Shown piece by piece: positions 28,086 to 52,756 of a DNA stretch of 64,000 nucleotides. The stretch covers positions 31,587 through 95,586 of the IMG/VR virus record IMGVR_UViG_3300044716_000844, one strand, 5' to 3'. A model generated the notes under the pieces. The model was not told the origin of the DNA. It saw only the letters and a list, made by a program, of their open reading frames with translations, and ran no database searches. This DNA is from a virus. Every line of letters starts with the position of its first letter. Positions within the stretch are counted from its first letter, which is position 1. The translations under genes and the position numbers were made by a program.

Positions 28086-28646
28086 ATGACCCTTACACCG
28101 AGAAAAAAGCGGAACTATGTGAACAACGCAGAGTTCCTTGAAGCAATGATCAAGTACAAAAAGGCTGTACGAGAGGCAGAAGACAGTGGCGAAGAACCAC
28201 CTCGCATTCCAAACTACATTGGTGAATGCCTCTATCAAATTGCTAACAGATTAGCATATAAGCCAAACTTCATTAACTACACATACCGTGACGACATGAT
28301 CGCTGATGGTCTTGAAAATGCGATCATGTGTGTTAACAACTTTGATCCAGAGAAGTCGAGCAACCCATTTGCGTACTTCACTCAGGTCATTTGGTTCGCA
28401 TTCATCCGTCGTATTCATAAGGAAAAGAAGCAAACCTATATTCGCCATAAAGTTATGGAAAACTCCCTCATTTCTGATACTGCCTTTGAACGCGGTGTTG
28501 ATAGTGACTTCAATGCTGCTTCCATGCGAGAGATGACAAACGACCGCATGAATGACTTTGTTGAAAAGTATGAAGCCAACATTCAAAGCAAAAAGAAGCC
28601 ATCAGCAAAGAAAAAGGGTCTTGAGAAGTTTATGGGTGAAGAATGA
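28086..28646 (+). CDS. 55: Late sigma factor gp55
   Basis: 186 aa (T4 gp55: 185 aa). The core region YTYRDDMIADGLENAIMCVN then FDPEKSSNPFAYFTQVIWFA is the sigma region 2-like segment of gp55. It directs host RNA polymerase to TATAAATA promoters, of which many are seen in this window. The C-terminus KKGLEKFMGEE has an L-x-x-F-M pattern similar to the sliding-clamp-binding tail of T4 gp55; this is an inference. Overlaps gp47 by ATGA. Confidence 0.93.
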   Translation: MTLTPRKKRNYVNNAEFLEAMIKYKKAVREAEDSGEEPPRIPNYIGECLYQIANRLAYKPNFINYTYRDDMIADGLENAIMCVNNFDPEKSSNPFAYFTQVIWFAFIRRIHKEKKQTYIRHKVMENSLISDTAFERGVDSDFNAASMREMTNDRMNDFVEKYEANIQSKKKPSAKKKGLEKFMGEE

Positions 28647-45688: not shown

Positions 45689-46084
45689 ATGAATATCGTT
45701 GATGATTTAGTAGAGGTTTCTCTACCATCTCAAGATTCTTTCTTGAAGGTGAAGGAAACGCTTACACGAATTGGTGTTGCTTCAAAGAAAGATAAAATCT
45801 TGTACCAATCCTGTCATATATTACATAAGCAGGGCAAATATTATATCGTGCATTTCAAAGAACTTTTTATTCTAGACGGAAAAGCGAACACTCTCTCAGA
45901 AGAAGACGCGAGCCGTAGAAACACGATTGTTAATCTTCTCGAAGAATGGGGCTTAGTGAAAGCAGTAAATCCTGAAAAGGTTCAGGATCCTGTCGCGCCT
46001 CTTTCTCAGATCAAAGTACTTCCTCATAAAGAAAAAGACGAGTGGACGCTCGTCGCTAAATACAGTATCGGCAAAAGAAAATAA
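45689..46084 (+). CDS. regA: Translational repressor RegA
   Basis: 131 aa (T4 RegA: 122 aa). The block DSFLKVKETLTRIGVASKKD then KILYQSCHILHKQGKYYIVH is almost the T4 sequence, and the C-terminus DEWTLVAKYSIGK also matches. RegA binds ribosome sites of early mRNAs and blocks their translation. Shares the clamp-loader operon. Confidence 0.95.
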   Translation: MNIVDDLVEVSLPSQDSFLKVKETLTRIGVASKKDKILYQSCHILHKQGKYYIVHFKELFILDGKANTLSEEDASRRNTIVNLLEEWGLVKAVNPEKVQDPVAPLSQIKVLPHKEKDEWTLVAKYSIGKRK

Positions 46085-46646: not shown

Positions 46647-46670
46647 CTTAGGGGACTTCGGTCCCCTAAG
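46647..46670 (+). terminator. UUCG hairpin after hsp20
   Basis: Perfect 10-bp stem CTTAGGGGAC/GTCCCCTAAG with TTCG loop. No T-run on the + strand, so it may stabilise the hsp20 mRNA 3' end more than terminate. Confidence 0.65.
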
Positions 46671-46673
46671 TAG

Positions 46674-46702
46674 TTGACACCTCATGCATGATGGTGTATA
46701 GT
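46674..46702 (+). promoter_or_regulatory. Early promoter for DNA polymerase
   Basis: TTGACA, 17 bp, TATAGT, then TAGGAGTTTGA before the gp43 ATG. Confidence 0.85.
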
Positions 46703-49246: not shown

Positions 49247-49514
49247 AACAATAAAAGACTTTGACGATGACTTTGGGTTTTCTATGGTTGACACTGAAGA
49301 GATCCTGAGTTATAATCAACCTGAGATTAACACTCTTTCGGCTGAGAACGAAGACCTTCGTCTTAGACTCGAAAAGATGTACAAAGCTATTGATAAACTG
49401 CTTACAAATCTGTCAAAAAATCCAGAACAAGAATTAATTAAATGGCCGAACAGACTTGAGCGAATCGCAGAGTTTCGTATCAAGCTGGAACGCATTCGTA
49501 AAGGAGAAGAATAA
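49239..49514 (+). CDS. Hypothetical coiled-coil protein between gp43 and uvsX
   Basis: 91 aa. The likely start is TTG 49239, 5 bp after GGAGAG and overlapping gp43 by 8 bp (LPKTIKDFDDDFGFSMVDTE); ATG 49284 is the alternative. C-terminal half is a coiled coil (NEDLRLRLEKMYKAIDKLL). Ends one base into the uvsX start. A perfect sigma70 promoter is embedded in it. Unknown function. Confidence 0.65.
   Translation: MPKTIKDFDDDFGFSMVDTEEILSYNQPEINTLSAENEDLRLRLEKMYKAIDKLLTNLSKNPEQELIKWPNRLERIAEFRIKLERIRKGEE
49288..49316 (+). promoter_or_regulatory. Consensus early promoter for uvsX
   Basis: TTGACA, 17 bp, TATAAT, inside the preceding gene, about 200 bp before uvsX. Confidence 0.75.
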
Positions 49515-50590
49515 TGTCGTTAATGGATAAATTGCTCAAGGCATCTACGGTCAAGATGACCGCGCCATTGCTCGATTCAAAGGTGTTTGGTAAGAAAGAA
49601 ATGGTGCCAACGCAAGTTCCTATGGTGAACGTTGCACTATCTGGCAGTGTTGACGGTGGGCTTTTGCCGGGTCTCACAATGCTTGCAGGGCCTTCGAAAC
49701 ACTTTAAGTCAGCCTTTGCATTGCTTATGGCTGCAGCATATCAAAAGAAGTATGATGACGCAATCATTCTCTTCTATGACTCAGAATTTGGTACTCCTCA
49801 AGCGTACTTTGAAGCGTTTGGTGTTGACATGGCGCGAGTCATTCATACTCCTATCACGAATATTGAAGAGCTGAAGTTCGATATTGTTCAGCAGCTTGAA
49901 GCTATCGAGAAGAAAGATCACGTCATTATCGTTATCGACTCGATTGGTAACCTTGCATCGAAGAAAGAAGTCGATGATGCTGCTGATGGTAAATCGGTTG
50001 CAGACATGTCTCGGGCAAAGCAGTTGAAGTCGGTCTTCCGTATCGTCACTCCTCACTTGAACCTGAAAGACATTCCAATGGTTGTGGTCAACCACATCTA
50101 CATGGAACAAGGTCTGTATCCGAAGGCAATCGTCTCGGGTGGTACTGGTATCTACCTGTCGGCTGACAATATCTGGATTCTTGGTCGTCAGCAAGAAAAA
50201 GAAGGCACTGAGATCAAGGGCTATCACTTCGTGATTAACATCGAGAAGTCTCGTCACGTTCGTGAGAAGTCAAAGATTCCGATCACTGTTACCTTTGATG
50301 GTGGTATTGCTAAATGGTCTGGTTTGATGGAAGTCGCTGAAGAAGGCGGGTTCTTGCGTAAACCAAAAGTTGGTTGGTATGAAGCAGTCGATCCTGAAAG
50401 CGGTGAAGTACTCTCGGATAAATTGCTTCGTGCAAAAGAGATTGCTGACAACGGTGTATTCTGGAAAATGATGTTTGACAAAACTGGATTTGCAGAGTAT
50501 ATTAAGAACAAATACACTGTTGCAACTCGTACTCTTATTAACGATGACGAGGCACACGTTGATATTGACGACGAAGATCTTGAAGACTGA
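49514..50590 (+). CDS. uvsX: RecA-like recombinase UvsX
   Basis: 358 aa (T4 UvsX: 391 aa). Walker A GPSKHFKS at 59-66 has the same unusual form as T4 (GPSKSFKS). Walker B-like HVIIVIDSIGNL follows, and the acidic C-terminus (DDEDLED) is typical. It pairs homologous DNA for repair and recombination-dependent replication. TAATG coupling to the upstream gene. Confidence 0.95.
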   Translation: MSLMDKLLKASTVKMTAPLLDSKVFGKKEMVPTQVPMVNVALSGSVDGGLLPGLTMLAGPSKHFKSAFALLMAAAYQKKYDDAIILFYDSEFGTPQAYFEAFGVDMARVIHTPITNIEELKFDIVQQLEAIEKKDHVIIVIDSIGNLASKKEVDDAADGKSVADMSRAKQLKSVFRIVTPHLNLKDIPMVVVNHIYMEQGLYPKAIVSGGTGIYLSADNIWILGRQQEKEGTEIKGYHFVINIEKSRHVREKSKIPITVTFDGGIAKWSGLMEVAEEGGFLRKPKVGWYEAVDPESGEVLSDKLLRAKEIADNGVFWKMMFDKTGFAEYIKNKYTVATRTLINDDEAHVDIDDEDLED

Positions 50591-50647: not shown

Positions 50648-52090
50648 ATGATCGAACAAACAATCTTAGCAGGTATGATTCATAATGAAGGTTATGTAAG
50701 AACGGTCTTGCCTTTCCTGAAAGACGAGTACTTCGAGGATCAAAACGAAAAGTTTATTTACACTACGATTAAGTCGTACATCGATCAATACAACGGATTG
50801 CCTACTCTTTCGGCTTTGAAGATTGCAATCGATGCATCGAATTCATTGAATGAAGAACGGTACAAACAAGTCAATACAACTCTTGATTCGTTGACTTACG
50901 ACGAAAAGACTGACATGACTTGGTTGGTTGATACGACCGAAAAGTTCTGTCAAGACAAAGCGATCTATAACGCAGTTCGTCAATCAATCCTTGTTCTCGA
51001 TGGTAAGATTAAAGATCTTGATAAGGGTGCAATCCCAGAACTATTGAGTGATGCTCTCGGTGTAAGCTTTGATACAAATGTTGGTCATGACTTCCTTGAA
51101 AATGCAGATGAGCGCTTTGACTTCTATCATCGAGTAGAAGAGAAGCTTGAGTTTGATCTTGAGTACTTCAACAAGATCACAAAGGGTGGCCTAAGTAAAA
51201 AGTCTCTGTCGGTTGCTCTTGCAGGCACTGGTGTTGGTAAGACTTTGTTCATGACTCATTGCGCTGCAGCATCTCTATCTGCTGGTAAGAACGTTCTCTA
51301 CATCACCATGGAAATGGCTGAAGAACGAATCGCCGAACGTATCGATTCAAATCTTCTTGATGTAACTCTTGACGATCTTCGTCTGCTTCCAAAGCCTATC
51401 TACAACTCGAAGATTGAAAAGATAAAGGCGAGAACAGTAGGCAAACTTATCGTGAAGGAATACCCTACGAGTTCTGCAGGTGCAAATCACTTTCGTCACC
51501 TGTTGAATGAATTGAAGCTAAAGAAAAACTTTGTGCCCGATGTTATCTTCATCGATTACTTAAACATCTGTATGAGTGCTCGGTTGAAACATGGTGCTAA
51601 CATGAACTCGTATATGATGATTAAAGCGATTGCAGAAGAGCTTCGTGGTCTTGCAATGGAGTTCAACGTTCCAGTTATGACTGCTACTCAGACCACTCGT
51701 TCTGGTTATGGTAACTCTGATGTCGAGTTAACCGATACATCAGAATCGTTCGGTCTACCTGCAACTGCCGACTTCATGTTTGCACTTATTTCGACAGAAG
51801 ATCATGAGAGCCGTGGTCAGCTTCTCGTCAAACAGCTGAAGAACCGTTGGGGTAGTGTTGATAGCCCTAAACGATTCGTTGTCGGTATCGACCGCTCAAA
51901 GATGCGCCTGTTTGATGTCGAAGAGTCTGCTCAAGAAGGTATCACTGGTGGGCCAAAACAACAAGATCGACCTATATTTGATGGTTCTTCTATGGTGCAA
52001 GACTCAGACTTTCAGCCAGATCATGACTTTGAACCGCAGCGACTAAGCAGCTTTAAGAAAAAGAAACCGAATTTTGGAGGGTTTAACTGA
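50648..52090 (+). CDS. 41: Replicative helicase gp41
   Basis: 480 aa DnaB-type helicase (T4 gp41: 475 aa). Walker A GTGVGKT at about 193-199, Walker B VIFIDYLNI, and ATQTTRSGYG (H4-type loop). Forms the hexameric helicase with primase gp61, which is not in this window. Acidic, Asn/Asp-rich tail ends RLSSFKKKKPNFGGFN. Overlaps the following small gene by one base. Confidence 0.95.
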   Translation: MIEQTILAGMIHNEGYVRTVLPFLKDEYFEDQNEKFIYTTIKSYIDQYNGLPTLSALKIAIDASNSLNEERYKQVNTTLDSLTYDEKTDMTWLVDTTEKFCQDKAIYNAVRQSILVLDGKIKDLDKGAIPELLSDALGVSFDTNVGHDFLENADERFDFYHRVEEKLEFDLEYFNKITKGGLSKKSLSVALAGTGVGKTLFMTHCAAASLSAGKNVLYITMEMAEERIAERIDSNLLDVTLDDLRLLPKPIYNSKIEKIKARTVGKLIVKEYPTSSAGANHFRHLLNELKLKKNFVPDVIFIDYLNICMSARLKHGANMNSYMMIKAIAEELRGLAMEFNVPVMTATQTTRSGYGNSDVELTDTSESFGLPATADFMFALISTEDHESRGQLLVKQLKNRWGSVDSPKRFVVGIDRSKMRLFDVEESAQEGITGGPKQQDRPIFDGSSMVQDSDFQPDHDFEPQRLSSFKKKKPNFGGFN

Positions 52091-52299
52091 TGGGCTACCG
52101 CGTAAATGAAAACAACAACTCGTTTGAGATCGTTGAAAAAGGATCCGAATTGATTGTAGCTCGTAGAAATGATAAGGATGCAGCAACGAAACTTTGTCGT
52201 TCGTTGAACTTAGGTTCTGGGTTCGATGGATTCACTCCACCGTTCTTTACACTCAAGTATCCAGATGATCATGCAAAAGGAAATACCGCTCAAACTTAA
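52090..52299 (+). CDS. Hypothetical protein after gp41 (69 aa)
   Basis: Translationally coupled to gp41 (TGATGG). The protein has the look of a small two-strand/helix domain (FEIVEKGSELIVARRNDKDA, ATKLCRSLNLGSGF) often found fused or adjacent to phage proteins as a sequence-specific helper. The stop codon lies in the loop of the following terminator hairpin. Confidence 0.65.
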   Translation: MGYRVNENNNSFEIVEKGSELIVARRNDKDAATKLCRSLNLGSGFDGFTPPFFTLKYPDDHAKGNTAQT

Positions 52300-52312
52300 T
52301 TGAGCGGTATTT
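52281..52312. terminator. Bidirectional terminator between convergent units
   Basis: Perfect 13-bp stem AAATACCGCTCAA/TTGAGCGGTATTT with 6-nt loop. On the + strand it overlaps the end of the gp41 operon; on the - strand it is followed by CCTTTT, so it also fits as terminator for a - strand transcript starting near 52444. Confidence 0.85.
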
Positions 52313-52440
52313 CACCGTGCACGATACGTGAATGTTGGGCGGAACCCCACCGGCATTCTTGATGCGACCCCAACTGTTCCATCTGTGATTTTGTATGCTA
52401 TCACACTTGCCTCTACGTTAATTAACGTGATTACACGCAC
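52312..52440 (-). CDS. Candidate - strand late small gene (42 aa) or ncRNA
   Basis: On the - strand a 42-codon frame runs from GTG (52440-52438) to TGA (52314-52312). The translation looks like real protein (starts VRVITLINVEASVIAYK, ends PVGFRPTFTYRAR). A TATAAATA octamer lies directly upstream on the same strand and a strong hairpin with a T-rich tail directly downstream. There is no Shine-Dalgarno, so a leaderless message, a decayed gene or a noncoding late RNA of about 160 nt are all possible. Confidence 0.4.
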   Translation of the reverse strand: MRVITLINVEASVIAYKITDGTVGVASRMPVGFRPTFTYRAR

Positions 52441-52449
52441 CCATACGAT

Positions 52450-52457
52450 TATTTATA
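52450..52457 (-). promoter_or_regulatory. Late promoter on - strand
   Basis: TATAAATA read on the - strand (TATTTATA on +), in an intergenic gap, pointing at the candidate small gene or RNA. The only - strand octamer I found between genes. Confidence 0.55.
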
Positions 52458-52477
52458 CAAAAAGTGTGCTCGGGCTA

Positions 52478-52505
52478 TTGACATTACTAAAAAAATGTTT
52501 ATATT
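52478..52505 (+). promoter_or_regulatory. Early promoter for small gene at 52538
   Basis: TTGACA, 16 bp, TATATT, 33 bp before the ATG. Diverges from the - strand late promoter 20 bp away. Confidence 0.8.
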
Positions 52506-52537
52506 ACTACTATAAGCAGAGCAAAGGTAGAACAACC

Positions 52538-52756
52538 ATGATGACCTTCGAACAGACCGGAACCGTCTTCACCGCCACCAACTCGATTAAGCCGGTGATT
52601 ATCAACAAGAACCATGCCAACCAATACATGCTCTTCACCCCCGAAGGTCGTCTGCTTGACAACTTCACCTCGGCCGGCCCTTTCGTAGACTTCGAAACAG
52701 CCAAACGTAATGCAGAATGCAACGTTGGTATGGCAATGAACTGGAGTGACTTCTAA
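52538..52756 (+). CDS. Hypothetical early protein (72 aa)
   Basis: Start at ATG 52538 (or 52541), behind its own promoter; the longer in-frame extension to 52328 is rejected because it crosses that promoter. The protein (starts MMTFEQTGTVFTATNSIKPV) is a small beta-rich domain. Codons are clearly C-ending and GC-richer than the neighbours. Coupled to the next mini-gene by TAATG. Confidence 0.65.
   Translation: MMTFEQTGTVFTATNSIKPVIINKNHANQYMLFTPEGRLLDNFTSAGPFVDFETAKRNAECNVGMAMNWSDF

Follow-up and report, generated by a model that had tools for sequence, protein, structure and literature searches.

The intergenic space downstream of gp41

The DNA analysed here, a stretch of 64,000 nucleotides (hereafter the window) contained in a 95.6-kb IMG/VR record, comes from a phage with T4-type genes, among them those for gp43, gp44, gp62, gp45, RegA, UvsX, gp41 and the late sigma factor gp55, and all recognised genes of the window lie on the + strand. 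The gene for the DnaB-like primase-helicase gp41 (50648..52090, +; phrog_19, E=5e-125) is followed by a 69-codon ORF of the LNxGxGFDGxTPxFF type (52090..52299, +), whose comparison with PHROG gave a weak match to a family with no assigned function and nothing better. Beyond the end of this ORF at 52299 lies a gap (52300-52537) that extends to the start of the next + strand gene at 52538, and the operon to the right has a sigma70-type, early-like promoter within the gap (52478..52505, +; TTGACA-16-TATATT, 11/12).

For this gap the initial annotation had proposed a hidden leftward transcript, running from a perfect late octamer through a 42-codon GTG frame to a perfect 13-bp hairpin. We find that the minus strand between 52457 and 52275 does carry such signals as one element, composed of a perfect T4-type late promoter octamer (52450..52457, -; an exact match to TATAAATA), a core of about 120 nt and an intrinsic terminator (52280..52313, -). 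The octamer stands back to back with the early-like promoter. Across the window TATAAATA occurs 13 times, against 2.2 expected for both strands together and a count of 13 in none of 100 shuffles, and the copy in question is the lone one on the minus strand. A homologue of gp55 is encoded at 28086..28646 (+; phrog_234, E=4.6e-59); two marks of a T4-type late unit, an element of the TATAAATA type just 5' of the start and a phage-encoded gp55, are thus present.

The stem of the terminator is perfect, with 14 bp when the outer pair is counted (13 bp without it) and a 6-nt loop, and its tail on the minus strand reads CTTTTGCATG, the T tail on the + strand being weak. Within 44-64 kb no other minus-strand terminator-like site is as strong. 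Since the stem overlaps the last codons and the stop of the 69-codon ORF, one hairpin probably ends two converging transcripts, that is, the + strand gp41 transcript as well as the leftward one. With the +1 position placed near 52444 from T4 late-promoter spacing and the 3' end placed in the T-tract past the hairpin (~52275), the predicted transcript would span about 170 nt (52275..52444, -), which supports a discrete, terminator-bounded late transcript of about 160-170 nt, where one of about 160 nt had been envisaged; both signals are kept in relatives. Because the recognised genes are all on the + strand, no other credible minus-strand unit is seen in the window, as had also been proposed.

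Hairpins shared in a like manner are seen in two further loci, L005 and L011. Elsewhere in the window, sigma70-type promoters that are perfect or nearly so (TTGACA-17-TATAAT and similar) lie at 49288-49316, 46674-46702 and 50475-50503, all on the + strand and 5' of or inside the gp43-UvsX-gp41 cluster. A strong, perfect 10-bp hairpin 5' of gp43 (46647-46670) has a weak minus-strand T tail and may be bidirectional.

A conserved RNA family 3' of gp41

Loci were fetched by similarity of the gp41 protein, and in several of these phages the same block was found 3' of gp41, on the minus or the + strand, with the order late octamer, core with the fixed motifs GAGGCAAG, GGAAYA and GGTGGGGTTCC, and terminator. 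A covariance model, R1, built from 12 of the gp41-fetched loci with the window left out, recovers the window in cmsearch with 79.5 bits (E=2.8e-16), placing the structured core at 52322..52442 (-), and matches 17 of 80 gp41 loci. Together with DNA-pattern scans of IMG/VR and further model searches, this established a family of 206 IMG/VR loci with 124 distinct sequences, the latter being the fair count, since the loci include contigs that were fetched more than once, in duplicate. Each large contig tested has one copy. Judged by sequence comparison, the part that exceeds chance is the conservation of the whole element in more than 100 relatives, and not the ORF. A near-identical copy with one difference is found in L406.

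Pattern-fetched loci were chosen partly for their conserved motifs, and invariance was therefore judged only on the 18 sequences not so chosen, namely 17 loci found with the gp41 protein and the window. Among these 18 members, fetched without use of the octamer, TATAAATA is exact in 14 and [AC]TAAATA precedes helix P1 in all, the exact octamer being present in 0.8% of random 60-mers drawn from the same loci as a control. In a wider set the octamer is exact in the window and in 48 of 73 members, with [AC]TAAATA in the remainder, and across members the promoter element stands within 2-26 nt upstream. Likewise, a terminator-like hairpin, read by eye, follows P1 in nearly all family members. Loss of the octamer or the hairpin was looked for in close relatives, and both were found to be kept. 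In the closest diverged relative, L395, whose gp41 is 86% identical to that of the window and nearest to it in the tree, the octamer reads GATAAATA, an A-T pair of the terminator stem has become G-C through compensatory change on both sides, and the differences in the RNA are confined to loops or linkers; the promoter-side flank has diverged.

In each of the 188 loci that include gp41 the RNA lies downstream of it, on the same strand in 120 and on the opposite strand in 68. In a gp41 tree the opposite-strand rows, including the window, fall in one clade with a support of 99 and the same-strand rows in another; the opposite-strand clade also holds phiM12, in which the model finds no RNA. The tree requires 5 changes of orientation in all, versus 61 with shuffled labels, and by this measure one strand switch explains the pattern. 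The 69-codon ORF has tblastn matches in 127 of the 188 loci with gp41, and its small-protein family (LNxGxGFDGxTPxFF-like) adjoins the RNA in most carriers. A similar unannotated ORF is apparent by eye in the Sinorhizobium phage phiM12 (L086, 7640-7822), a phage with no detectable RNA.

A comparison of the window and 18 family loci with Rfam 15, whose families include CfrI, PhotoRC, wcaG, GOLLD, ROOL, OLE, 6S, tmRNA, RNase P and SRP, gave no match at the gathering score, and relaxed E-values gave chance-level matches only. Model searches (R1 and/or R2) of 14 cultured or single-cell phage records, including HTVC008M, Melnitz, phiM12, DLP6, P-SSM2, S-SM2 and S-CREM1, recovered no significant match, and blastn with three family RNAs against cultured and single-cell phages gave no credible one. 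Two pattern scans of about 85,000 bacterial and archaeal genomes, with patterns narrow enough that divergent copies may be missed, returned 0 and 1 matches, none of them confirmed: the single match, in an Acidimicrobiaceae MAG (L337), is not recovered by the model at E-values up to E=1 and is attributed to chance. A cyanophage lead (P-RSM4/S-TIM4) from a weak blastn match was likewise set aside as chance, the locus being without the motif. The gene psbA, a sign of cyanobacterial hosts, is absent from the 8 large contigs tested (one of them, G007, without a copy of the RNA), which fits non-cyanobacterial hosts, though short of proof. The papers searched contained no description of the RNA. In 2023 Fremin and colleagues reportedly predicted candidate structured viral RNAs across the whole of IMG/VR, and their set could list this RNA.

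Fold and covariation

The fold common to the family has four helices at a junction, to which a fifth may be added, and a 3-bp hairpin whose loop is UGGGGUU. In the window, on the minus strand, the junction is closed by helix P1 (52325..52439, with 52439-52434 pairing with 52330-52325), in which 6 of 6 pairs show double changes and 94.9% of cells are paired across 76 distinct sequences. P2 is a hairpin, ACGU-UAAUUA-ACGU (52415..52428, -), with double changes at all 5 modelled pairs and 94.7% of cells paired. It is followed by the junction strand J2/3 (52406..52413, -), with the motif GAGGCAAG, of which the GGCA is unpaired and nearly invariant; in the gp41-protein-found set its GG is kept in 18/18 and its CA in 94%. 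The hairpin P3 (52384..52405, -; UGUGAU/AUCACA in the window) is the weakest of the helices, with 74% of cells paired and double changes at 5 of 5 pairs. The unpaired junction strand J3/4, GGAA (52377..52380, -), is identical throughout the same set (18/18) and leads to P4 (52334..52374, -; 52374-52369 with 52339-52334), paired in 100% of cells across the 76 sequences. Within P4 lie the optional hairpin P4b (52365-52353, -) and helix P5 (52340..52352, -), a CGG/CCG stem closing the 7-nt loop UGGGGUU (52349-52343). This loop is identical in 18/18 of the gp41-protein-found set and in 76/76 aligned sequences, and the P5 pairs around it vary, among others, as CGG/CCG, AGG/CCU, CCG/CGG, CAG/CUG and CAC/GUG.

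Taken over the 76 distinct sequences, standard pairs make up 92.8% of pair cells and double changes occur at 29 of 29 pairs; the covariation score is 0.617, compared with 0.202 +/- 0.008 after shuffling and no more than 0.133 in slid controls. As this alignment was fitted to the model, we made two checks that do not depend on it. RNAalifold, applied to a MAFFT alignment made from sequence only, predicted P4 with 6 of 6 pairs covarying. In an alignment-free count, anchored only on GGAA and TGGGGTT, 96.0% of P4/P5 cells are paired, versus 73.5% in strand shuffles (maximum 77.4% in 1000), and 50 of 60 distinct combinations of P4/P5 strands are fully paired. G-U cells exceed A-C cells both in the partly model-fitted data (101 versus 29) and in the alignment-free count (51 versus 21), an excess that supports the minus strand of the window as the RNA strand. 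Minimum-free-energy folds of single sequences often depart from the consensus, and the folding energy of the core alone is modestly better than that of shuffles (z of -1.7 for the core of the window). The element thus combines compensatory change and a discrete terminator with the lack of a conserved reading frame, as in structured noncoding RNAs.

A pseudoknot between GGAA and a UUCC on the P5 side was considered and rejected, since it is broken in L001, L003, L006 and L011, where P5 covaries instead.

Proposed role and rival explanations

That the leftward unit is a real structured RNA gene we regard as very nearly certain, and the overall best explanation, which we consider quite probable, is a stand-alone, untranslated RNA gene of about 170 nt, transcribed late and acting in trans. 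From the sequence comparisons we infer both that the gene is transcribed late and that its folded product acts in trans. The gp55-type late RNA polymerase would transcribe leftward from TATAAATA late in infection, and the RNA would be released at the hairpin (52313-52280). Its predicted 5' end would lie almost directly at helix P1, and it would fold into the junction of P1, P2, P3 and P4/P5. So folded, it would act in trans, presenting the P5 loop UGGGGUU to one conserved partner, which may be a protein or, less likely, another RNA. Protein binding as the mechanism is a tentative proposal; the RegA-type translational repressor (45689-46084, +; phrog_242) is one candidate partner, as an RNA-binding protein of the phage. 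Action in trans is favoured because the RNA has a promoter and a terminator of its own, because its orientation to the neighbouring genes is flipped between two clades with the fold kept, and because none of the genes downstream accompanies it throughout.

The 42-codon GTG frame noted in the initial annotation does exist, being open in the window (52312..52440, -; 42 aa), and its start at 52440 lies about 4 nt past the expected transcription start, as would suit a leaderless late mRNA encoding a peptide of 42 codons. However, 18 of 24 same-class relatives have the frame closed by codon 5-23, and in L395 a 1-nt indel shifts and destroys it while the RNA remains about 94% identical. When codon and structural conservation were compared in relatives, as had been suggested, the substitutions were found to obey base pairs rather than codons, and no conserved coding frame from the first codon was found. 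We therefore judge the frame not to be a gene and consider the leaderless mRNA extremely improbable; of the earlier formulation, "leaderless or noncoding", the noncoding half stands and the leaderless coding half falls. Hardly more credible is a bidirectional terminator of the gp41 operon combined with a chance octamer and no RNA gene at all. The hairpin does coincide with the end of the 69-codon ORF, and on the + strand it is followed by a weak T tail, but this reading does not accommodate the roughly 120 nt between octamer and hairpin, conserved in both sequence and structure over 124 distinct sequences, nor the conservation of the octamer along with that core.

An antisense or transcription-interference regulator, directed at the operon of gp41 and the 69-codon ORF or at the early operon to the right, would suit the clade of the window, where the RNA and gp41 are on opposite strands and the RNA stands back to back with an early-type promoter. 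The second gp41 clade, however, has this RNA on the strand of gp41, again with a late-type promoter and a terminator of its own, and the RNA core overlaps no gene, only the terminator touching the end of the ORF. The orientation, being flipped between the clades, is not needed for function, which argues against antisense control of the neighbours; we regard such a regulator as improbable, and interference might arise as a by-product in a single clade but would not be the conserved function. A cis-acting element of a longer mRNA, such as a riboswitch-like leader or a 3' UTR, in place of a free RNA, is similarly improbable. The compact junction with its conserved unpaired strands is reminiscent of riboswitches, and in the same-strand clade the RNA comes after the 69-codon ORF; yet the promoter element only 2-26 nt upstream and the terminator hairpin directly 3' of P1 speak against it, as does the lack, in the clade of the window, of any gene in the direction of the RNA before the terminator. 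A somewhat better, though still unlikely, prospect is a free RNA whose UGGGGUU loop pairs with a host RNA, for instance the CCA end of tRNA, rather than with a protein. The invariance of the loop and its predicted exposure speak for this, its first bases UGG complement CCA, and T-box RNAs use UGGN to read the ends of tRNAs. Against this, a match of the size of UGG/CCA is expected by chance, and the loop complement AACCCCA is missing from the rRNA of E. coli (which may not be the host) and from the vicinity of the starts of the window genes, leaving a simple antisense role of the loop without support.

Returning to the trans-acting late RNA, there is an outside chance that it does the work in a late-phase process, so far undescribed, that a large group of T4-like phages would have. 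It might then be, for example, a ribonucleoprotein subunit, a reader of tRNA ends or a ribozyme, with the four-helix core and the UGGGGUU loop as its basis, as opposed to an ordinary regulatory sRNA. Although the gp41 proteins of the carriers are only ~55-60% identical and the strand has changed, the fold and the invariant bases have been kept, which is suggestive of selection for a role late in infection. Few viruses have been studied as well as the T4-like phages, yet stand-alone conserved RNAs with late promoters have hardly been described in them; RNA genes can evidently hide within seemingly blank intergenic space. A defined core of about 100 nt, a set of candidate critical bases and a locus just 3' of gp41 offer handles for a search in cultured relatives.

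Among known RNAs of T4-type phages, the stable RNAs C and D of T4 are small RNAs of the T4 tRNA cluster, with no assigned function. They resemble the window RNA as small RNAs of this group, but the latter adjoins gp41, and the window has no tRNA or tmRNA gene (ARAGORN); the two are set apart here by location. The packaging RNA of phi29 is also a small structured phage RNA of similar size, from which the window RNA differs in having no Rfam match, and an RNA is not known to be required in T4-type packaging. CfrI, PhotoRC-II, wcaG and the glutamine riboswitch are structured RNAs found in T4-like cyanophages (PMC9964418), and are likewise elements of T4-like genomes, though none matches the window RNA.

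GOLLD, of which a link to phage is known, ROOL and OLE are several times larger than the window RNA. Like it, they are conserved structured RNAs that comparative genomics brought to light and to which no function has been assigned; the window RNA differs in having no Rfam match. These large ornate RNAs form homo-oligomers, as seen by cryo-EM (PMC12286853). In the family of the window, in contrast, a kissing-loop homodimer formed through P2 was rejected as a general feature, a palindromic and hence dimer-capable loop being present in just 33 of 121 P2 hairpins and lost between the window and L395. As a separate observation, the apical loops of P2 in several clades (L225, L319, L234, L280, L091 and others) are 6-nt palindromes that differ by clade, including CTGCAG, TCTAGA, TGCGCA, ATGCAT and GCATGC, and the RNA may dimerise in those clades.
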